A stretch of DNA of 64,000 bases, taken from assembly GCA_017540645.1 (NCBI GenBank), contig JAFYAQ010000001.1:1-64000 (forward strand), read 5' to 3'. This DNA is from Oscillospiraceae bacterium. GTDB lineage: Bacteria; Bacillota; Clostridia; Oscillospirales; Oscillospiraceae. The translations under genes and the position numbers were made by a program. Below, one piece after another: positions 4,782-44,330 of the stretch (its first letter is position 1; every line of letters begins with the position of its first letter). The notes beneath the pieces are model-generated. The model was not told the DNA's origin. It ran no database searches and was given only the letters and a program-made list of their open reading frames with translations.

Positions 4782-7043
4782 ATGCCTGAATACAGATCAG
4801 CCTCCGGCAGTGCGGCCGAGGATCTGTTCATAGACCTTTTCGCGGATACCTTCGGGGCAGAAAAAGCCGGGTATCTGTATTCACAGTACCCGTTTTACGA
4901 CATTTATCAGAATGCCCGCTTTGCTGATTTCGTACTGGAAAACGGCGCGACTCGCGTGGCCATTGAGATCGACGATGAGGCCTCCCACAATCCGCGCCTG
5001 GTATCGCAGGACAAGTTCTATGATGATCTGCTGAAACAGAACAGCATGATTCACCTGGGCTGGGATGTGTACCGCTGGGCAGTTCGGCAAATGCAGAAGC
5101 AGCCGGAAACCGTAAAGGACGAGCTGCGCGTGTTCCTCGGCAGCGATCCGCGCTTCAAAGAGATTGAGGACTACCTGCCTACCCAGCAAGGCCGGGCGCT
5201 GAAAGCCGATCAGCTGGAACTGCGGGAGTATCAGCAGGAAGCACTGGACTCGCTGAAGGCTATGCGGCAGAACCGGGAGACCATCGCCCTGCTTTACCAT
5301 GCCACCGGTACAGGTAAAACCGTAACCGCAGTCATGGATGCCAAACGCTGCGGCGGCCGGGTGCTGTTCGTGGCGCACACGATGGAATTGGTGAACCAAG
5401 CCTACAACACCTTCCGCGACCTGTGGCCGGAAGTGACTGCCGGCAAGTTCGCGGACAATCTCAAGGAGCCGGGCGCCCACGTGGTATGCGGCAGCATCCA
5501 GAGCGTAGCGCTGAACCTGGATCAGTTCCGGGAGGATGCTTTTGACTATCTAATCATCGACGAGGCGCACCACGCCTCCGCAGATACATATCAGAAGGTG
5601 CTGGCCTATTTCAAGCCGCAGTTTACACTGGGGCTCACCGCTACGCCGGAGCGGGCGGACGATGTAAATATCCTGGAGATCTTCAAGAACACCGCCCACA
5701 AGCTGGATATCCAGACCGCCGTGGAGATCGGCGCCCTGGTTCCTGTTCGCTGCATCCGCATCCATACAAATATCGACATGACCAAGGTGCGTTTCAACAG
5801 CGTCCAGTATAATATCCGCGATCTTGATGTGAAGATCTGCGTGACCGAGCGCAACCAGCTCATCGTGGATACCTGGCTGGACTACGTAAAGGACAAGCGT
5901 ACTGTCGTGTTCTGCGCATCTGTGAAGCACGCTGAGCAGATCGCGGAGCTGTTCCGGGCGGTGGGTGTCGCGGCGATTGCGGTGTCCGGCAGCATGAAAA
6001 CCTCCGAGCGAAACGAACAACTTGCCAAGTTCGCCAGCGGTGAGATCAAAGTGCTTTGCGCCTGCGATCTGCTGAATGAGGGCTGGGACTGCCCGCAGAC
6101 GGAAGTGCTGTTCATGGCGCGCCCCACCATGTCCAAGGTGCTGTATACGCAGCAGCTTGGCCGCGGTATGCGCACGGCTGAGGGCAAAGATTACCTGATG
6201 GTCTTTGACTTTGTAGACAACGCCAGCCAGTACAATATGCCCTACTCGCTTCACCGCCTGTTTAAACTGAACGAGTACCACGCAGGCGGCACGGTGGTCG
6301 GCAAGAAGGGGCAACGTGAGGCCGAGGACGACCTCTACCGCAAGGGTGAGAAGCCGGACGCCATCATCGACTATCCCGTGGACGCCACCGATTACGAGCT
6401 GGTGGATATCTTCAACTGGCAGGAAGAGGCTGCCGGGATGATCTCGCAGATGGAGTTTGTACGCAGGGTGGATGTTCAGACCGAGACCATCGAGCGTTAT
6501 GTGCGTGAAGGAAAGCTGGTGCCGGATCTGATCGTGCCCATGAGCGAGCGCCGCACCTTCAAGTATTTCAAAGAGGAAACCCTGCAGTCCTATGCCGAAC
6601 AGTACGGCTGGAAACTCATCGACGACAGCAACCGCAAGCAGCTGTTCATGGAAATGGTCGAGCAGATGGACATGAGCTATTCCTATAAGCCGGTGCTGCT
6701 GAAAGCGATCCTGACTTACGCCGATGCTGCCGGCCGTGTAAAGATCAGTGATATTGTCTCCTATTTCCGCAGCTTCTACGAGGCCCGCCGCGCTGCCGGC
6801 CTAAAGGTTGAGAAAGCCAACAGCATCTTTGCCAAGGGCGGTTACACCGACAAGGAAGCCGAGCGGAATATCCTCTCCAACCCTTTTAAGCGCTTCGAGG
6901 ACATGAACATGATGCGCCATACCAAAACGCTGGGTATCATCGAGGTAGACGGCACGGTGTGGAAGAAGATGAGCGAGGATGAGAAGAAGCGGGTTGAGGA
7001 AATCTGCGACGAAAAGCTGGCGAGCTATTATTTGCGCTCATAA
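4782..7043 (+). CDS. SF2 DEAD/DEAH helicase with N-terminal nuclease-like domain
   Basis: This 753-residue protein has an N-terminal ~130 residues resembling DUF559/PD-(D/E)XK-type domains (VAIEIDDEASH, then a basic tract ending HLGWDVYRW). The RecA-like helicase core follows, with motif I HATGTGKT near residue 172, motif II DEAH near 260 and motif VI QQLGRGMR near 457. The last ~270 residues are uncharacterised. The architecture resembles type III restriction or Hef-like helicases found in defence islands. It follows the MazG-like gene by 12 bases with AGGTGAACC upstream of ATG. It is GC-rich like the partial helicase at the window start, so the AT-rich genes 1274-4452 may have been inserted between former neighbours. 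Confidence 0.85.
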   Translation: MPEYRSASGSAAEDLFIDLFADTFGAEKAGYLYSQYPFYDIYQNARFADFVLENGATRVAIEIDDEASHNPRLVSQDKFYDDLLKQNSMIHLGWDVYRWAVRQMQKQPETVKDELRVFLGSDPRFKEIEDYLPTQQGRALKADQLELREYQQEALDSLKAMRQNRETIALLYHATGTGKTVTAVMDAKRCGGRVLFVAHTMELVNQAYNTFRDLWPEVTAGKFADNLKEPGAHVVCGSIQSVALNLDQFREDAFDYLIIDEAHHASADTYQKVLAYFKPQFTLGLTATPERADDVNILEIFKNTAHKLDIQTAVEIGALVPVRCIRIHTNIDMTKVRFNSVQYNIRDLDVKICVTERNQLIVDTWLDYVKDKRTVVFCASVKHAEQIAELFRAVGVAAIAVSGSMKTSERNEQLAKFASGEIKVLCACDLLNEGWDCPQTEVLFMARPTMSKVLYTQQLGRGMRTAEGKDYLMVFDFVDNASQYNMPYSLHRLFKLNEYHAGGTVVGKKGQREAEDDLYRKGEKPDAIIDYPVDATDYELVDIFNWQEEAAGMISQMEFVRRVDVQTETIERYVREGKLVPDLIVPMSERRTFKYFKEETLQSYAEQYGWKLIDDSNRKQLFMEMVEQMDMSYSYKPVLLKAILTYADAAGRVKISDIVSYFRSFYEARRAAGLKVEKANSIFAKGGYTDKEAERNILSNPFKRFEDMNMMRHTKTLGIIEVDGTVWKKMSEDEKKRVEEICDEKLASYYLRS

Positions 7044-37185: not shown

Positions 37186-37638
37186 ATGAAAACCGCTACG
37201 ATTATGATCGGTATCCAAGGGAGCGGCAAGAGTGAATTCTGCCGGCGCTTTCTTCCGGAGACATGTCGAATAAACCTGGATACCCTGAAAACAAGGAATA
37301 ACGAAAAGCGCCAGCTCGAGGACTGTTTCGCCCGGGGTATAGACTTTGTCGTTGACAATACAAACCCCAACCGGGAAGCTCGTGCCCGCTATATCCCTGT
37401 CGCCAAAGAGCACGGATACCGTGTTGTCGGATATTTCATGCAGTCCCGTCTGCAGGAGTGCATTGCCCGCAACAATCTGCGCGAAGGAAAAGAAAAGATC
37501 CCCGCAAAGGCAATCGCCATGACTTCAAATATGCTGGAGATGCCCAGCAAGGCCGAAGGCTTCGACGAGCTCTATTTTGTGGCAAACGACGGCGCGGAAA
37601 TGAAAATAAGCAAATGGAGAGAAAACGATGAACTTTGA
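37186..37638 (+). CDS. polynucleotide-kinase-like P-loop protein
   Basis: The 150-residue protein has Walker A GIQGSGKS (residues 9-16), a DTLK/R segment, VVDNTNPNREAR (the DNTN motif of T4 Pnk-type kinases) and a lid-like RNNLREGKEKIP. These features fit an RNA/DNA 5'-kinase of the Pnk family rather than a metabolic kinase. It overlaps the Thg1-like gene by 11 bases. A 5'-kinase would prepare 5'-OH RNA ends left by ribotoxins for the Thg1-like polymerase or another ligase route. The substrate is inferred from context. Confidence 0.8.
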   Translation: MKTATIMIGIQGSGKSEFCRRFLPETCRINLDTLKTRNNEKRQLEDCFARGIDFVVDNTNPNREARARYIPVAKEHGYRVVGYFMQSRLQECIARNNLREGKEKIPAKAIAMTSNMLEMPSKAEGFDELYFVANDGAEMKISKWRENDEL

Positions 37639-38386
37639 TGATCTTGACGCAAAAATGCGCGTATATGAGCAATCCCTGGATCAGGTGTTGATCCCTGAAC
37701 TGTATCTGGTTGCTCGCCTGGACGGAAACCGCTTTACCCGTCTTACCAAGGAAATCTGCAGTTTTGAAGCTCCGTTTGATATCCGATTCCGGGATATGAT
37801 GGTAGAGACCGTCAAGGCCCTGATGAACTACGGATTCAGAGTTATCTATGGCTTTACGGAGAGTGACGAGATCTCTTTGCTGTTCCACCCCGACGAGGAC
37901 ACCTTCGGACGCAAAGTCCGTAAGTACAACTCCCTGCTAGCCGGTGTGGCCAGCGCCGCCTTTTCCCAGCAGCTCGGCCAGCAGGCAATTTTTGACTGCC
38001 GCATGGTGCCGCTCCCCACTGTTGAGCGTGTCCAAGATTATTTCCTCTGGCGGCAGGAGGATGCCCACAGGAACTCCCTCAACGCTCACTGCTACTGGAT
38101 GCTCCGCAAGCAGGGCAAGAGCGTTGCCGAAGCGACAAAGATGCTGGAAGGCCAATCGGTCGCCTTCAAAAATGAACTTCTTTTCCAGACCGGGATCAAC
38201 TTCGACAAGCTCCCCAGTTGGCAGAAGCGCGGCATCGGTGTGTACTGGGATACCTATGAGAAGCAGGGCTTCAACCCCAAAACCGGGCAGACGGGAATTG
38301 CGATCCGCCGCGGTCTGAAAGTTGATATGGAGATTCCTCTCCGGGAAGCCTACGCCGATTTTATTGCAAAGACGCTGGCTGAATAA
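37628..38386 (+). CDS. Thg1-like 3'-5' RNA polymerase (tRNAHis guanylyltransferase superfamily)
   Basis: The 252-residue protein shows the Thg1 catalytic core: RLDGNRFTRLTKE with metal ligand D32, and YGFTESDEISLLF with D80, then FDCRMVPLPT and a long C-terminal half. Thg1-like proteins of bacteria repair 5'-truncated tRNAs by templated addition in the 3'-5' direction. The family is rare in Clostridia. The start overlaps the end of the kinase gene, implying coupled synthesis. Two WYL genes, a structured RNA array and RtcB follow on the same strand, so a tRNA-repair role is well supported by context. Confidence 0.92.
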   Translation: MNFDDLDAKMRVYEQSLDQVLIPELYLVARLDGNRFTRLTKEICSFEAPFDIRFRDMMVETVKALMNYGFRVIYGFTESDEISLLFHPDEDTFGRKVRKYNSLLAGVASAAFSQQLGQQAIFDCRMVPLPTVERVQDYFLWRQEDAHRNSLNAHCYWMLRKQGKSVAEATKMLEGQSVAFKNELLFQTGINFDKLPSWQKRGIGVYWDTYEKQGFNPKTGQTGIAIRRGLKVDMEIPLREAYADFIAKTLAE

Positions 38387-38424: not shown

Positions 38425-39657
38425 ATGGCTTACAGCGAGCTGATCAAAAGCTTTGAAAAGATCCGCGACTACATGCGGGAATTCTATATTTACGGATTCA
38501 AGAGCCGCGAGGACTACACGAAAAAGAGCGCCCGCAGCTATGACGACGAGCGCCGCCGGATCGAAAGCTGGCTGGGGGGCTACATGGCTTTCCGCCGCAG
38601 CTCCGAGGGGAAAAACGTCTTCATCTCCGTGGACAACCGCAGCGTCACCTTTAACCCGCTGCACAGCGCCTGGAAGGCCAAAAGCTTCACCGACAAGGAT
38701 ATCGTGCTGCATTTCTGCATCCTGGACATCCTTTCCGACGGCACGGCCCGCGGCGTGACCCAGATCTCCGACGGCGTGGCGGCGTATCTGTCCCACACGG
38801 AAACCCCCTTTGAGATCGATGAATCCACGGTCCGCAAGAAGCTGAAGGAGTACTCGGAGCTGGGGATCCTCCGCGGCGAAAAAGCCGGGCGCTCCCTCCT
38901 GTACCGCCTGGCGGACAGCCGGGTGGACCTCTCTTCCTGGGAGGACGCCGCGGCGTACTATTCGGAGGAAGCCCCTCTCGGCGTGATCGGCTCCTATCTG
39001 CTGGACCGGCAGGAGGAGGCGCCGGAGCATTTCCGCTACAAGCATCACTATCTGCTCCATACCCTGGACACGCAGGTGCTTTATGACGCGCTGTGCGCCA
39101 TGAAGGAGAAGCGCTGCGTGGATATCGTCACCTTCAGCATCCGCAAGGACGCGGAGCGGGAGCACCGGGTGTACCCGCTGCGCTTTTACATCAGCACCCA
39201 GACCGGGCGGGAGTATCTTCTGGCCTACCATTACAAATTCCGCAAGCCCATGTTCTTCCGCCTGGACACGGTGCGCTCCATCCAGGCCGGCCCGGTGGAG
39301 ACCCGGCACGAAAAATATGAGGGCTTTGCCGTCAAGTTCGATGAAAACCTCTGGGGGGTATCCACGGGCGGCGATTACAGTCTGGACCATGTGGAGCTCA
39401 CCATCCGTGTGGGGGACAGCGAGAGCTATATCCTCGACCGGCTGGAGCGGGAGAAGCGCCACGGGCGGATCGAGCCGATCGACGATCACACCTATAAGTT
39501 TACGGCGGACGTGTACGACGCCGGGGAGCTTTTGATGTGGGCCCGGAGCTTCATCGGGCGGGTGGTCCGCTTTGAGAGCGACAACTCCTTTGCCGTCACC
39601 CGCTTTTACGACGACCTGGGGCGCATGGCCGAGATGTACGGAGGTGAGGAGGCATGA
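38425..39657 (+). CDS. WYL-domain transcriptional regulator 1
   Basis: The 410-residue protein has an N-terminal helical region with a winged-helix-like part (DESTVRKKLKEYSELGILRGEKAGRS reduced to its core) and a C-terminal WYL domain with HRVYPLRFYISTQTGREYLLAYHY. WYL proteins bind nucleic acid or a nucleotide ligand and often control defence and repair loci. AAAGGAGGTG precedes the ATG. Its stop overlaps the next WYL gene. It probably senses RNA ends or damage products and activates the promoter before the RNA array. Confidence 0.85.
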   Translation: MAYSELIKSFEKIRDYMREFYIYGFKSREDYTKKSARSYDDERRRIESWLGGYMAFRRSSEGKNVFISVDNRSVTFNPLHSAWKAKSFTDKDIVLHFCILDILSDGTARGVTQISDGVAAYLSHTETPFEIDESTVRKKLKEYSELGILRGEKAGRSLLYRLADSRVDLSSWEDAAAYYSEEAPLGVIGSYLLDRQEEAPEHFRYKHHYLLHTLDTQVLYDALCAMKEKRCVDIVTFSIRKDAEREHRVYPLRFYISTQTGREYLLAYHYKFRKPMFFRLDTVRSIQAGPVETRHEKYEGFAVKFDENLWGVSTGGDYSLDHVELTIRVGDSESYILDRLEREKRHGRIEPIDDHTYKFTADVYDAGELLMWARSFIGRVVRFESDNSFAVTRFYDDLGRMAEMYGGEEA

Positions 39658-40568
39658 TCTTCTCCGAGATCTACGGCAGCTATTTCAAGGCCGTCTCGGC
39701 CATCCTCTCCAAGGCCGCGGACGGGGCGCTGACGGAGAAGGAGCTGACCCGCACCGTGCTGGAGAACGCTTTCGGGGAAAGCCTGATCACGATCCCCGCC
39801 AGGCTGACCGACGGCAGCTGGCCGCTGCTCACCCCGGACTTTGGCACCCCGTTGAAGCACAAGCCCCGCATGCCTCTGACGACGCTGGAAAAGCAGTGGC
39901 TCAAGGCCCTGCTGCTGGATCCCCGCATCCGCCTCTTCGCTCCCTCCGGGGAGGGTCTGGAGGACGTGGAGCCGCTTTTCACGCCGGATCAGTTCGTGTA
40001 TTTTGACCGCTACACGGACGGGGACGATTACTCCGACCCTCTTTATATCGAGCATTTCCGCAGCATCCTCCGGGCCCTGCGGGAAAAGCGAAAGCTCCTT
40101 GTCTGTTTCCACGGGCATCGGGGCAACCGGCGGAGCTGCGTCTGTATCCCTTACAAGCTGGAGTACTCCTCCAAGGACGACAAATTCCGGCTGATCACCG
40201 CCTTTCGGAACAAGCCGGTGACGGTCAATCTCTCCCGGATCGACTCGGTGCAGATCCTGGATCCCTGGGAGGAAAACGAATACAGCCCGCCCCGCGAACG
40301 GGAGGAAGCGCTTGTCATGGAGCTCATTGATTCGCGCAACGCCCTGGAGCGGGCCATGCTCCACTTCTCCGACCTGGAAAAGGAGACGGAGCGGATCGGC
40401 GAGGGGCGCTACCGGATCACCCTGCACTACCTCCGGGGGGATGAGACGGAGATTTTGATCCGCATCCTCTCCTTCGGTCCGGTGCTGAAGGTGCTCGAGC
40501 CGGAGAGCATGGTCTCCCAGATCCGGGAGCGGCTTGCAAGGCAGATGGCCCTGACGGCGGAAGAATAA
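39654..40568 (+). CDS. WYL-domain transcriptional regulator 2
   Basis: The 304-residue protein overlaps the first WYL gene by four bases (ATGA). It contains FRSILRALREKRKLLVCFHGHRGN followed by CVCIPYKLEYSSKDDKFRL, the WYL core, and a C-terminal WCX-like domain. It lacks the long N-terminal DNA-binding region of its partner, so the two may work as a heteromer. A strong terminator follows its stop and separates the regulators from the RNA array. Confidence 0.85.
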   Translation: MIFSEIYGSYFKAVSAILSKAADGALTEKELTRTVLENAFGESLITIPARLTDGSWPLLTPDFGTPLKHKPRMPLTTLEKQWLKALLLDPRIRLFAPSGEGLEDVEPLFTPDQFVYFDRYTDGDDYSDPLYIEHFRSILRALREKRKLLVCFHGHRGNRRSCVCIPYKLEYSSKDDKFRLITAFRNKPVTVNLSRIDSVQILDPWEENEYSPPREREEALVMELIDSRNALERAMLHFSDLEKETERIGEGRYRITLHYLRGDETEILIRILSFGPVLKVLEPESMVSQIRERLARQMALTAEE

Positions 40569-40577
40569 CGAAAAAAA

Positions 40578-40618
40578 TGCGAACTTTCCTCGAAAAAGGA
40601 GAGTTCGCAACTTTTTTT
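40578..40618. terminator. terminator between the WYL genes and the RNA array
   Basis: TGCGAACTTTCCT pairs with AGGAGAGTTCGCA with one mismatch around CGAAAA, and seven T follow. The preceding run of seven A allows action in both directions. It makes the array a separate transcription unit. Confidence 0.85.
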
Positions 40619-40620
40619 CC

Positions 40621-40656
40621 AGGAAAAACCCGGGAAAGGCTCGTATAGTGTAGCCG
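40621..40656 (+). promoter_or_regulatory. candidate regulated promoter of the RNA array
   Basis: TATAGT at 40644-40649 is a good -10 box, and the expected start near 40656 is eight bases before the first RNA. No -35 consensus lies 16-18 bases upstream, as in activator-dependent promoters. A GGCT/AGCC dyad brackets the -10 box. Confidence 0.5.
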
Positions 40657-40663
40657 TAAACAA

Positions 40664-40720
40664 AAGCACGAACAGCAACAACATATGAATCTGTCGCCAA
40701 AACAGTTACAACGTGCTTTG
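40664..40720 (+). ncRNA. array RNA 1
   Basis: The terminal helix is AAGCACG (40664-40670) with CGTGCTT (40712-40718). After the 5' arm comes AACAGCAAC. An inner hairpin CTGT/ACAG (40691-40705) has the 7-nt loop CGCCAAA. No T-arm is present. It ends in CTTTG, like the CTTG of the other elements. Confidence 0.8.
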
Positions 40721-40724
40721 CGAA

Positions 40725-40830
40725 AGACACAGACAGCAGCATTTTCGGTGCATTAGCTTCGTGGGAAGCACCCGGCAGCTAACCGGGGAACGGCGGGTTC
40801 GACTCCCGTATGCATAAAAACTGTGTCTTG
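40725..40830 (+). ncRNA. array RNA 2, tRNA-like
   Basis: The terminal helix is AGACACAG (40725-40732) with CTGTGTCT (40821-40828). Inside, TGCAT/ATGCA (40749-40753, 40810-40814) closes a cloverleaf: a D-like arm GCTTC-GTGG-GAAGC, an anticodon-like arm CCCGG-CAGCTAA-CCGGG and a T-arm CGGG-TTCGACT-CCCG with a consensus T-loop. There is no U33, and the acceptor is only 5 bp, so it is not a decoding tRNA. Confidence 0.88.
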
Positions 40831-40831
40831 A

Positions 40832-40925
40832 AAGGCGCCAACAGCAAATCCGAATCGCTGAATGGTTAAGCAGCCGGTTCATACCCGGCGTATGCGGGTT
40901 CGAATCCCGTTTCGACGGCGCCTTG
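40832..40925 (+). ncRNA. array RNA 3, tRNA-like with CAU-type anticodon loop
   Basis: The terminal helix is AAGGCGCC (40832-40839) with GGCGCCTT (40917-40924). Inside are a D-arm with GAATGGTTA loop including GG, an anticodon arm GCCGG-TTCATAC-CCGGC (40873-40889) with U33 and anticodon CAU, and a T-arm CGGG-TTCGAAT-CCCG (40895-40909). The acceptor equivalent is only CGAA/TTCG. ACAGCAAA links the outer helix to this cloverleaf. Confidence 0.9.
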
Positions 40926-40941
40926 TTCTGCGAAAACCATA

Positions 40942-41027
40942 AAGGTGCATACAGCAAATATCCCGATGACCCGGAACAGGTACTGCCTGACGGGTAAGTG
41001 GCATGGTGGAACATGCCGTGCACCTTG
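40942..41027 (+). ncRNA. array RNA 4
   Basis: The terminal helix is AAGGTGCA (40942-40949) with TGCACCTT (41019-41026), and TACAGCAAA follows the 5' arm. Inner pairings are CCCG/CGGG, CAGG-TACTG-CCTG and GGCATG-GTGGAA-CATGCC. I see no T-loop and no 7-nt loop, so it departs most from tRNA. The tail is CTTG. Confidence 0.82.
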
Positions 41028-41046
41028 TTTTATCACAAAGTAAATA

Positions 41047-41159
41047 AAGGTGCGTCATCCGCGACACCGCGTCTTGGTCGGAGTCTCGCCAACTCTTCCG
41101 CCCACACCAACCTGCGCATTCGGACGGAAACGCGCTCAAAGGCATGAGCACGCACCTTG
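41047..41159 (+). ncRNA. array RNA 5
   Basis: The terminal helix is AAGGTGCGT (41047-41055) with ACGCACCTT (41150-41158). The ACAGCA linker is missing. An inner stem GAGT/ACTC (41081-41095) carries the 7-nt loop CTCGCCA with U33. GCTCA-AAGGCA-TGAGC lies next to the 3' arm, and TTCCG/CGGAA closes another domain. Confidence 0.8.
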
Positions 41160-41162
41160 TAT

Positions 41163-41239
41163 AGATGCGCACACAGCAAATCAGCTTCGAATGTCTGCCT
41201 CGAAAGCAGAAGGTCAAGGGGATCTCCCCGCGCATCTTG
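41163..41239 (+). ncRNA. array RNA 6, anticodon-stem-loop mimic
   Basis: The terminal helix is AGATGCGC (41163-41170) with GCGCATCT (41230-41237), followed by ACACAGCAAA. A 5-bp stem TCTGC/GCAGA (41194-41210) has the 7-nt loop CTCGAAA with U33, and a GGGGA/TCCCC hairpin precedes the 3' arm. The tail is CTTG. Confidence 0.85.
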
Positions 41240-41244
41240 ACAAA

Positions 41245-41304
41245 AAGACGCCGACAGCAAAAGCCTTTCTGGTACGGTCTCGAAAACCGAAAAACGGCGT
41301 CTTG
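41245..41304 (+). ncRNA. array RNA 7, anticodon-stem-loop mimic
   Basis: The terminal helix is AAGACGCCG (41245-41253) with CGGCGTCTT (41295-41303). ACAGCAAAA follows, and the stem CGGT/ACCG (41275-41289) has the same 7-nt loop CTCGAAA as RNA 6. It ends 38 bases before the start of the DUF2828 gene, with no terminator between them. Confidence 0.85.
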
Positions 41305-41342: not shown

Positions 41343-42800
41343 ATGCTGGAATTCCTGAAAAAAGAAGCAAATATGACGCTCACCGAAAACGGCGCGGCCA
41401 CCAACCGCAGCACGGGAAAGGAGTGTCTGGATCTGTTCGCCGCCATCGGCGGCCTGCGCCGGGAGAGCGAGCAGGAGATCGCCGCCCGCTTCCTGCGGGC
41501 CTATGCCGAGGATCCGGACCTGGCCATGAAGATCGCCTTTTTCGCCCGGGATATCCGGGGCGGCCTGGGCGAGCGGAAGGTCTTCCGCGCCATCCTCCGG
41601 TGGCTGGCTCTCAACGAGAAGGCTTCTCTTGTCCGCAACCTGCCCTATATCGCCGAGTACGGCCGTTGGGACGACGTGCTGGTGCTGCTGGACACCCCCT
41701 GCCGCGCCGAGGCCCTGGCCCAGCTGAAAAAGCAGTTCGACGCGGACATGGCCGCCCTCACCCACGGCGGGGAGGTCTCCCTGCTGGGCAAGTGGCTGCC
41801 CTCCGTCAACGCCTCCAACGCCGACACCGTGCGCCGGGCCAAGATCGTCGCCCGGGCCTTCGGACTCTCCGACCGGGATTATCGCAAGGCGCTGGTGACG
41901 CTTCGCGCGCGCATCCGCATCATCGAGAACAACCTCCGGGAGAAGGATTATACCTTCGATTACGCCAAGCAGCCCTCCAAGGCCATGTTCAAGTACCGCC
42001 GGGCCTTTATCCGCAACGACGGCGAGCGCTACGGCGCGTTCATGGAGCGGGTGAAAAAGGGCGAGGCCCGCGTACATACCGGCACTCTCTTCCCCTATGA
42101 GATCGTGGCGCCCTTCTTCTCCCGCAATGTCTCCGGCGAGGAGCGCACGGCCATCGACGCCACCTGGAACGCCCAGGAGGACTTCACCACCGGGGAAAAC
42201 GCCCTGGTGGTCGTGGACGGCTCCGGCTCCATGTACGCCGCCCGGGATCCCATGCCCGCCGCGGTGGCGCTCTCCCTGGGCGTGTACTTTGCCGAGCGGA
42301 ACACCGGCGCGTTCCGGAACCACTTCATCACCTTCTCCGAGAATCCCCAGCTGGTGGAAATCAAGGGCGGAGATATTCTGGACCGGATCCGCTACTGCCA
42401 CGACTTCAACGAGGCGGCCAACACCAATATCCAGAAGGTGTTCGAGCTCATCCTGGCGGCGGCGGTGAAAAACCGGGTGCCCCGGGAGGATCTGCCCTCC
42501 ACCGTGTACATCATCTCCGACATGGAGTTTGATTACTGCACGAAGGACGCCTCTCTCACCAACTTCGAGTACGCGAAGAAGCTGTTTGCCCGGCACGGGT
42601 ATCCCCTGCCCCGGCTGGTATTCTGGAACGTGGCCAGCCGGAACCGGCAGCAGCCCGTCACGATCAACGACCGGGGCGTGGCCCTGGTGAGCGGCTGCAG
42701 CCCCCGGGTCTTCTCCATGGTCATGGACGGCGAGCTGGATCCGTATTCCTACATGCTCAGCATCGTAGATACGGAGCGCTACGCGCCCATCGCGGCGTAA
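41343..42800 (+). CDS. DUF2828 (Ro/TROVE-related) protein with vWA domain
   Basis: The 485-residue protein begins with a HEAT-like helical half (FLRAYAEDPDLAMKIAFFARD, then GERKVFRAILRWLA) as in DUF2828/TROVE proteins. It ends with a von Willebrand A domain whose metal site is D292-G-S-G-S in VVVDGSGSM, with ISDMEFD later. Ro60 and bacterial Rsr are ring-shaped RNA binders that hold Y RNAs and misfolded RNAs. Here the array RNAs immediately upstream are natural candidates for its ligands. AAAGGAGG precedes the ATG, and the gene appears co-transcribed with the array. Confidence 0.88.
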   Translation: MLEFLKKEANMTLTENGAATNRSTGKECLDLFAAIGGLRRESEQEIAARFLRAYAEDPDLAMKIAFFARDIRGGLGERKVFRAILRWLALNEKASLVRNLPYIAEYGRWDDVLVLLDTPCRAEALAQLKKQFDADMAALTHGGEVSLLGKWLPSVNASNADTVRRAKIVARAFGLSDRDYRKALVTLRARIRIIENNLREKDYTFDYAKQPSKAMFKYRRAFIRNDGERYGAFMERVKKGEARVHTGTLFPYEIVAPFFSRNVSGEERTAIDATWNAQEDFTTGENALVVVDGSGSMYAARDPMPAAVALSLGVYFAERNTGAFRNHFITFSENPQLVEIKGGDILDRIRYCHDFNEAANTNIQKVFELILAAAVKNRVPREDLPSTVYIISDMEFDYCTKDASLTNFEYAKKLFARHGYPLPRLVFWNVASRNRQQPVTINDRGVALVSGCSPRVFSMVMDGELDPYSYMLSIVDTERYAPIAA

Positions 42801-43068
42801 GGAGCAATTCTCCGTTTGGTTTGCAGAGGACAGGGTGTGAAAAAGGCCCCCGTAAACGGGTCGCGGAGTTTTGAGGTCGATGCGCGCCGACGCTCTGCGC
42901 GCATCGGCGCGGCGGTGTACGGTCTCTGATTGGAAACAGAGCCGCTGTGCGCCGCCGTCTATTAGGCAACACCTCCGATGGGCAGAGACTGGATAGAGCA
43001 AGCTTGGACCACCTGCCCATTCAGGAGTGAGAAGCAACGATATGGCCATGCTCTCCATATCGCGGCGG
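42801..43068 (+). ncRNA. structured spacer between DUF2828 and rtcB genes
   Basis: There is no supported gene, but the region is full of perfect stems: CGATGCGCG/CGCGCATCG (42878-42906), CTCTG/CAGAG with an outer GGCGG/CCGCC (about 42911-42956), ATGGGCAG/CTGCCCAT (42978-43020) and CGATATGG/CCATATCG (43038-43062). It may be a processed RNA or a regulatory leader of rtcB. It lacks the ACAGCAAA and CTTG marks of the array elements. Confidence 0.6.
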
Positions 43069-43111
43069 GCCGGGGAGGCGGACTATGTCCCCGTATCTCC
43101 CCGGCTTTTTT
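43069..43111 (+). terminator. terminator or attenuator before rtcB
   Basis: GCCGGGGAG (43069-43077) pairs with CTCCCCGGC (43097-43105), followed by six T (43106-43111). It sits directly before the GAAAGGA of rtcB, so rtcB expression needs read-through or antitermination. Confidence 0.75.
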
Positions 43112-43127
43112 GAAAGGACTGACAAAA

Positions 43128-44330
43128 ATGATCGAAATACACGGAAAATTCAATACCGCCGTCTGCTACACCCCCGCCCTGGAGCCCACGGCGGAGCAGC
43201 AGATCCGGGCCGTCTGCGACCAGGAGGCCTTTGCCGGCTGCAAGATCCGCATCATGCCGGACGTCCACGCCGGCATGGGCTGCACCATCGGTACCACCAT
43301 GACCATCCGGGACAAGGTCGTCCCCGGCATGGTGGGCGTGGACATCGGCTGCGGCATGGAGACCGTGCGCCTGGCGGAGAAGGAGCTCGACTTTGCCGCG
43401 CTGGACGCGCTGATCCGCGCCGAGATCCCCTGCGGCCAGAACATCCGCAGGGAAGAGCATCCGCTGAACGAGGAGATCAACCTCTACCAGCTCCGCTGCG
43501 CCCCCTATGTCTCCATCGAGCGGGCCAAGCGCAGCATCGGCACCCTGGGCGGCGGCAACCACTTCATCGAAGTCGACCGGGGAGAAAAGGGAGATCTGTA
43601 TCTCGTGATCCACTCCGGCAGCCGCCACCTGGGCACCCAGGTCTGCCAGTACTACCAGAATCAGGGCCGCTTTGCCATGTGGGGCGGCGCCCGCCACCAG
43701 ATCGACGCGCTGATCGCCGAATACCGGGCCGCGGGACGCTGGCAGGAGATCCAGCCCGCCATCGAAGAGCTGCGAAAGGAGCACGCCATCTCCATCCCCA
43801 AGGATCTGGCGTACGTGGAGGGCAAGCTGTTTGAAGACTACATCCACGACATGCGCCTCACCCAGCGTTTCGCCGTGCTCAACCGCAAGGCCATGACCGA
43901 TGTGATCTTGCGGGGCATGGGCCTGACCAAGGTGGAGGAGTTCACCACCATCCACAACTACATCGACACGGAAAAGATGATCCTCCGGAAGGGCTCCGTC
44001 TCCGCCGAGGCCGGGGAGAAGCTGCTGATCCCCATCAACATGCGGGACGGCAGTCTCATCTGCATCGGACGCGGCAACGAGGAATGGAACTGCTCCGCGC
44101 CCCACGGCGCCGGGCGCATCATGAGCCGCAAGCAGGCCTTTGCCCAGCTCTCCATGGACGAGTACGCCGCCGAAATGGAAGGGATCTGGTCCTCCTGCGT
44201 CGTGCGCGACACCCTGGACGAGTCCCCCATGGCCTATAAGCCCATGGATGAGATCGTGGCCGGGATCGCTCCCACGGCCGAGATCATCGAGCGCATCCGC
44301 CCGGTCTACAACTTCAAGGCCGCGGAGTAA
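43128..44330 (+). CDS. rtcB: RNA-splicing ligase RtcB
   Basis: The 400-residue protein has all RtcB motifs: MPDVHAGMGCTIGTT, GVDIGCGM with metal-binding C75, GTLGGGNHFIE, HSGSR, and NCSAPHGAGR with the guanylylated histidine H326. It joins 2',3'-cyclic phosphate (or 3'-phosphate) and 5'-OH RNA ends with GTP and Mn2+, the ends left by anticodon nucleases. It is shorter than the Escherichia coli type (about 400 residues), as common in Clostridia. The ATG 43128 follows GAAAGGA. No rtcA or archease gene is in the window. Confidence 0.96.
   Translation: MIEIHGKFNTAVCYTPALEPTAEQQIRAVCDQEAFAGCKIRIMPDVHAGMGCTIGTTMTIRDKVVPGMVGVDIGCGMETVRLAEKELDFAALDALIRAEIPCGQNIRREEHPLNEEINLYQLRCAPYVSIERAKRSIGTLGGGNHFIEVDRGEKGDLYLVIHSGSRHLGTQVCQYYQNQGRFAMWGGARHQIDALIAEYRAAGRWQEIQPAIEELRKEHAISIPKDLAYVEGKLFEDYIHDMRLTQRFAVLNRKAMTDVILRGMGLTKVEEFTTIHNYIDTEKMILRKGSVSAEAGEKLLIPINMRDGSLICIGRGNEEWNCSAPHGAGRIMSRKQAFAQLSMDEYAAEMEGIWSSCVVRDTLDESPMAYKPMDEIVAGIAPTAEIIERIRPVYNFKAAE

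Follow-up and report, generated by a model that had tools for sequence, protein, structure and literature searches.

The stretch of Oscillospiraceae DNA analysed here (64,000 nt, hereafter the window) carries an array of seven small structured elements which, judged by sequence comparison, is part of a conserved system linked to genes for DUF2828 proteins. Across the related loci a single scaffold appears to hold varied cargo: whole tRNA-like inserts, bare anticodon arms, permuted tRNAs and fragments of 23S rRNA. We think it slightly more probable than an even chance that the elements are a library of decoys, held by the Ro-like protein predicted next to them and mimicking RNA sites that toxins target.

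The array is 0.64 kb of non-coding sequence between the second of two WYL regulators and a DUF2828/DUF7788 gene, in a plus-strand run that opens with a polynucleotide-kinase (PNK)-like kinase and a Thg1-like enzyme and closes with RtcB (Table 1). The kinase-like AAA_33 protein also matched the NCBIfam PNK-3'Pase family (TIGR01663, 2e-13), under the curated cut-off. Both this gene and the Thg1-like gene are accessory, each with a homologue at 2 of 80 related loci; homologues of the WYL regulators were present at 51 (regulator 1, many truncated) and 52 (regulator 2) of the 80, and RtcB, the neighbourhood feature of an RNA-repair operon, at 53. The linkage to a Ro-like protein and RtcB in the original prediction is thus borne out, the Ro fold being a structure prediction. 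Pfam returned neither an RtcA cyclase nor RtcR among the ten window proteins, the related loci being compared with the window proteins only, and PADLOC reported WYL alone. Of the 81 loci, 34 have a conserved box, TTCGCAAC(N0-2)TTTTTT, 5' of DUF2828; in 18 of the 34 its position relative to the first detected element is -54 to -62, and it is also present where the WYL genes face the opposite way (e.g. L003 and L009).

Table 1 Coordinates of the array elements and of the surrounding gene run in the window
Feature	Position	Strand	Basis or description
Polynucleotide-kinase-like P-loop protein (AAA_33)	37186..37638	+	Pfam AAA_33 7.9e-15
Thg1-like 3'-5' nucleotidyltransferase	37628..38386	+	Pfam Thg1 3.6e-30, Thg1C 3.9e-17
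WYL-domain regulator 1	38425..39657	+	Pfam WYL 2e-05
WYL/WCX regulator 2	39654..40568	+	Pfam WCX 3.4e-05
Promoter/operator-like conserved box TTCGCAACTTTTTTT	40604..40618	+	59 nt ahead of E1
TATAGT, candidate -10 box	40644..40649	+	By reading the sequence
E1	40663..40719	+	8-bp end stem, ACAGCAA, small hairpin, 7-nt loop
E2	40724..40829	+	9-bp end stem, ACAGCAG, whole tRNA-like insert
E3	40832..40924	+	8-bp end stem, ACAGCAA, tRNA-like insert
E4	40942..41026	+	8-bp end stem (+1 G-U), ACAGCAA, hairpin insert
E5	41047..41158	+	9-bp end stem, no ACAGCAA, structured insert
E6	41163..41237	+	8-bp end stem (41163-41170 with 41230-41237), ACAGCAA, hairpin TCTGC-CTCGAAA-GCAGA
E7	41245..41303	+	9-bp end stem, ACAGCAA
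DUF2828 + DUF7788 protein	41343..42800	+	Pfam 1e-33 and 1.5e-43
RtcB-family RNA ligase	42978..44330	+	Pfam RtcB 6.7e-63; the start may be the internal ATG at 43128

All seven predicted stem-closed elements proved real, lying on the plus strand at 40663-41303 with end stems of 8-9 bp: a 743-nt region held six perfect 8-bp TTG-ending inverted repeats, against a mean of 0.04 and a maximum of 1 in 2000 Markov shuffles, and the same stem type occurred twice on the remaining plus strand of the window and not at all on the minus strand. Scripts find these six; the seventh, E6, has lost its outermost A-T pair and for that reason was picked out by eye. ACAGCA is carried by six of the seven, in keeping with the five or six predicted; the exception, E5, has its full 9-bp end stem despite the missing tag, and its cargo was not recognised. 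The pattern AARRYRCNNACAGCAA has four occurrences in the 2.34-Mb genome (32 contigs), all within the array, and the reversed control has none.

Mimicry of tRNA is clearest in E2 and E3, where the predicted T-loops, TTCGACT and TTCGAAT, are both present: ARAGORN called the E2 insert tRNA-Ser (GCT), with an Rfam tRNA score of 36.3 bits, and the E3 insert tRNA-Met (CAT), which Rfam also found as a tRNA. Both inserts are enclosed by the end stem and lack a free 7-bp acceptor with a CCA end, which agrees with the earlier view that these are not decoding tRNAs. ARAGORN and Rfam nevertheless annotate tRNAs at 40747-40817 and 40848-40917 (the two inserts), and genome annotations may therefore carry false tRNA genes at such arrays. 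Positions 40875-40887 of E3 (CGGTTCATACCCG) reproduce exactly the core of the anticodon arm of tRNA-Met(CAT) from the same genome, the loop of E6 equals the anticodon loop of that genome's tRNA-Ser(CGA), and positions 41275-41289 of E7 (CGGTCTCGAAAACCG) share a 15-nt identity with the anticodon arm of that tRNA-Ser(CGA). The label of a tRNA-like array fits E2 and E3 and is too broad for E1, E4, E5, E6 and E7, which were not called tRNA; the inserts of E1, E4 and E5 were matched by no model RNA, and E4 and E5 had no rRNA match at E<0.06.

The protein encoded downstream of the array is predicted to have a Ro60/TROVE fold of helical repeats and a vWA domain. Its structure model (pLDDT 81.8, pTM 0.61) joins a helical-repeat ring to a vWA domain, the arrangement of TROVE/Ro60 proteins, and all 13 Foldseek matches at E<=0.001 were to Ro60, Rsr or TROVE. 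At the level of sequence, Pfam (E<=0.001) finds DUF2828 and DUF7788 only and not TROVE (PF05731), which had no match anywhere in the genome, and a PDB sequence search with the DUF2828 profile returned nothing at E<=1.

A DUF2828 protein scan of genome contigs gave 155 related stretches, the best 80 of which were kept and, with the window, make up the 81 loci; L083-L097, from a whole-genome search, are outside the final counts, and several duplicate L003-L082. Searching up to 1800 nt ahead of DUF2828, our element finder returned 350 matches; the opposite strand gave 37 and the 1800 nt downstream 69, figures which suggest that between a tenth and a fifth of the matches of this permissive finder may be due to chance. 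With E6 added, at least two elements were found upstream in 77 of 81 loci (opposite strand 5, downstream 17) and at least one in 80 (opposite strand 30, downstream 45), the sole locus without any, L012, having 252 nt of upstream sequence. The array that was singled out as unusual is therefore real but has much company, both in these loci and in many phages. Finder counts ranged from 0 to 10 elements per locus. In L013, L018 and L023 the upstream arrays exceed 1 kb and have gaps of about one element length, where the script probably misses further divergent elements.

The constant part of the elements is the stem, ACAGCAA and TTG. The consensus of 325 elements reads A-A-R-R-Y-R-C-N-N, ACAGCAA, a variable insert and N-N-G-Y-R-Y-Y-T-T-G, and is partly circular, the finder selecting partly for that consensus and for pairing. 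Over the 81 loci together, the 1500 nt preceding DUF2828 contain ACAGCAA itself 257 times, whereas the opposite strand has 5 copies and the 1500 nt after the gene 11. In a count that is independent of the finder's pairing rule, the nine bases 5' of ACAGCAA pair at 8-9 of 9 positions with their own TTG-ended partner in 69% of cases and with swapped arms in 8.3% (50 shuffles); by this swapped-arm control the end stems covary, as the original prediction had demanded of homologous loci. Its description of the stems as barcodes needs correcting in that they are not arbitrary, the consensus AARRYRC being shared among them. Six canonical TROVE loci (3.1-3.4 kb) had no ACAGCAA array, with 0-1 tags per plus strand.

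Cargo was counted in the inserts of 337 of 351 elements, those above 170 nt being dropped. ARAGORN, at a relaxed score, called a tRNA in 48 of the 337 on the sense strand and in 0 on the other, and six further inserts gave a call only when the insert was doubled and the call spanned the junction; three of these (L041, L067 and L072) are clearly circularly permuted, with the break at tRNA positions 35-39. An anticodon-type 7-nt loop on a 4-bp stem was present in 111 of the 337 against 22-28 in five shuffles, some of the anticodon-arm assignments being wrong; the loop was identical to an anticodon loop of the window genome's tRNAs in 38 inserts (0-3 shuffled) and had no such identity in 73 of the 111 (e.g. 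CTAAAAA). T-loop hairpins were found in 66 of the 337 (0-1 shuffled).

Searches against rRNA, with E. coli and L003's (L108) as references, gave 15 insert matches at E<0.02 (shuffles 2) and, at E<0.001, seven sense matches (shuffles 0), all at E. coli 23S 1934-1965, which we take to be H70/71; a comparison with E. coli rRNA gave 6 matches at E<0.01 (shuffles 1). The 1934-1965 module was present at nine loci and a module of 23S 866-911, presumably the base of H38, with its tip removed, at ten, both being post hoc patterns whose regular-expression classes were picked after the inserts had been read. A motif resembling a permuted version of the adjacent H37/38 strand is found in six more inserts, of which at least one (L018) seems unrelated. 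Counts of 10-mers favoured the sense over the antisense strand for both 23S (229 vs. 108) and 16S (107 vs. 58), the top 16S peak being a T-loop-like word. A 23S rRNA was not found in 20 related genomes; of the rRNAs taken instead, from E. coli and the genomes of L003 and L035, the L035 one was left out of the comparisons. In L029, positions 5209-5357 resemble a piece of 23S near E. coli 2450-2500, presumably the peptidyl-transferase region. To speak of an array of tRNA-like Y RNAs was right as to a structured array, and too narrow for a cargo that also includes anticodon arms, permuted tRNAs and 23S pieces.

Related elements differ most in the displayed arm. Among 52 tRNA-like elements, 147 pairs aligned at 72-98.5% identity, and the differing positions amounted to 34% of the anticodon loop (344/1010), 30% of the arm stem (426/1432) and 16% of the rest (1759/11245), with non-independent pairs that share members and with the conserved handle counted in the rest. 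Elements of L003, L009 and L017, for example, are ~87% identical and carry the loops TTCATAC, TTTGAGG and TTTACAT. Among the five closest pairs (>=94% identity) 2 of 35 loop positions had changed; the loop is mostly unchanged there, and loop change is thus not fast at that range. This pairwise comparison replaces an entropy comparison (42 elements with 34 different anticodon loops, the loop at 1.4-1.9 bits), which we set aside as a test because a T-loop motif had picked the elements and the low entropy of the T-loop was partly by construction. Two elements of one array in L024 have nearly identical 5' sides and the anticodon arms GTGACTGAAAATCAC and GTGGTTTATACCCAC, a pair which we read as duplication followed by a change of the displayed arm. 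Near neighbours (four pairs with DUF2828 proteins 94-96% identical) have most elements in common, and one pair shares all. A three-element block stands twice in L011, at 5199-5519 and 5636-5955, with its anticodon-type loops changed.

The tag and its arms extend to phages. DUF2828 was matched by 264 stretches in IMG/VR (best 80 of 264 kept) and by 682 of 50,697 phage records in INPHARED. Of 90 phage loci fetched, 79 were distinct. In these ACAGCAA occurred 194 times upstream and 3 times on the opposite strand, 58 of the 79 having it upstream and 45 having at least two copies. The arms of these tags paired 7/7 with their own partner in 24.7% of cases against 1.7% when swapped; a strict closed-hairpin test (7/7 pairs; own 0.5%, swapped 0.1%) was uninformative, and 17 looser closed-hairpin cases came without a control of their own. 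Stem-tagged copies lie near DUF2828, on either side, in Bacillus FADO, BcoS-136, Escherichia tootiki, Listeria LP-039 and others, and also in Staphylococcus CoN_Ph11 and Mycobacterium LeBron. Tags in Synechococcus B23 and Vibrio QD01 were unconvincing as elements, being mostly inside genes. A tRNA call lay within 2.5 kb in 52 of 80 IMG/VR loci (some duplicated), a count that may include the elements themselves. In phage tRNA-like genes, such as that of L155 upstream of DUF2828, the handle is a closed hairpin between the D arm and the anticodon arm, a layout which is a circular permutation of the bacterial one, and some phage elements retain tRNA ends. Mimicry of rRNA was not enriched overall in the phage k-mer test (E. 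coli 23S, 138 sense and 112 antisense positions). Upstream of DUF2828 in L158 and L239 are 23S-like stretches near E. coli 2450-2500, single cases noticed by eye. Phage DUF2828 proteins, among the matches listed, are annotated mainly as hypothetical or (Ro-like) RNA-binding; the DUF2828 search also matched LeBron gp53, a Ro-like protein whose overexpression is reported to be toxic (PMC13148394).

Were the elements decoys, each would be expressed as an RNA and processed, the neighbouring predicted Ro60-fold protein would bind it by the shared end stem and ACAGCAA tag, and the tRNA or rRNA site mimic that it displays would compete for ribotoxins that cut or bind that site. RtcB, here also the kinase and the Thg1-like enzyme, may mend cut tRNAs or decoys, the library would diversify as elements duplicate and their displayed loops change, and phages may carry it against host anticodon nucleases. 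We infer this scheme from features of the sequences themselves: the covarying handle, the sense-strand mimic inserts, the related elements with changed arms, the linkage to DUF2828, often with a WYL pair and RtcB close by, and the handle in phages. A constant handle bearing variable, sense-strand mimics of translation sites makes decoys our preferred reading, with a confidence close to one half. Against it, many inserts, those of E1, E4 and E5 included, were matched to no target, and none of the putative decoys was connected with a toxin gene. In Salmonella, YrlA may competitively inhibit an anticodon nuclease, a suggestion of Hughes et al. (2020, PMC7790460), who detected no YrlA fragments; the cutting of baits is thus unsupported by that one precedent.

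It is rather unlikely that the elements act as Y-RNA-like adaptors, which regulate or tether the Ro-like ring and whose tRNA-like parts recruit tRNA-handling or repair enzymes, not toxins. The predicted Ro fold of the DUF2828 protein fits such a role, and there are two published precedents: a D. radiodurans Y RNA that tethers Rsr to PNPase (PMC7790460) and a tRNA-like partner that serves TROVE proteins as a platform for repair (PMC7824862). Adaptors would be expected to have constant cargo, yet differences are about twice as frequent in the anticodon loops as elsewhere in the element, and 23S fragments are not obvious recruiters. The WYL pair adjoining the array and the conserved box preceding it would also suit damage sensors, baits which when cut by ribotoxins switch on a WYL-controlled operon and are reset by RtcB; we hold this more doubtful still, as the cutting of elements is an assumption of this reading and WYL is annotated in 0 of 10 named phage regions, where many genes are hypothetical.

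That the elements are permuted or intron-bearing tRNA precursors, spliced by RtcB into working tRNAs or circular RNAs, seems improbable: the permuted inserts with breakpoints at 35-39, the phage tRNA-like genes with the handle between two arms and the closeness of RtcB all point that way, but a tRNA was called in just 48 of 337 elements, rRNA pieces and bare anticodon arms cannot yield tRNAs, and arms and tag are kept across loci. Least credible to us is a structured cis leader of the downstream genes, or a set of decaying tRNA pseudogenes, without separate RNAs. In 64 of the 80 loci having elements the last one does end 20-60 nt short of the DUF2828 match, yet the number of elements varies from 0 to 10 per locus, some phage copies are interspersed with tRNA genes at a distance of hundreds of bases from the start codon or else lie 3' of the gene, and the covariation and constant tag speak against decay. 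Neither an adaptor nor a cis leader needs variable anticodon loops, which favours decoys. More generally, and with somewhat less than even confidence, we propose that bacteria and phages may keep encoded, expandable libraries of RNA baits, in which vulnerable translation sites (the anticodon arm, 23S H38 and H70/71) are copied onto a common Ro-binding handle and evolve by duplication and loop swapping, an array-based immunity that would record targets to protect and not invaders to attack.

In Y RNAs the two ends pair into a stem that closes the molecule. The elements have in common with Y RNAs and YrlA the end stem and the adjoining (predicted) Ro-fold gene, the ends of the stem being assumed here to be those of the RNA. 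Rfam lent no support to placing them in a described Y RNA family, since at the gathering score it matched tRNA alone, both for the window and for 10 of the 80 loci. Burroughs and Aravind reportedly described, in 2016, a tRNA-like RNA associated with SPFH/Band-7 proteins and Rot/TROVE repair systems; these share with the present loci an RNA-repair neighbourhood, a scaffold protein and a tRNA-like RNA, and are not known to include arrays that mimic several RNA targets. Literature titles and abstract openings, among the matches listed, gave no description of such arrays. TROVE or Rsr with a tRNA-like partner is described (PMC7824862, PMC7790460), and the latter calls the roles of bacterial Rsr and of Y RNAs with tRNA-like modules open. 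Diversified tRNA and rRNA mimics on one handle make the nuclease-competitor idea testable element by element, and offer a candidate role for DUF2828 proteins, including those of the phage records matched above.

Phage tRNAs have been proposed to evade anticodon nucleases as insensitive working tRNAs (PMC10264068). They share with our elements variation of the anticodon loop and a proposed shaping by anticodon nucleases, and differ in that the elements are mostly not called tRNA and are in some cases rRNA pieces on a Ro-type handle. The rsr-yrlBA-rtcBA operons of Ro60/Rsr proteins and Y RNAs likewise combine a Ro-fold protein (predicted here), a tRNA-like module and a nearby RtcB. Here, however, the protein is DUF2828 by sequence and not TROVE, WYL genes and not RtcR adjoin, and in place of YrlA and YrlB there are arrays of up to 10 finder matches, with diversified tRNA and 23S cargo on the shared handle AARRYRC-NN-ACAGCAA...TTG.
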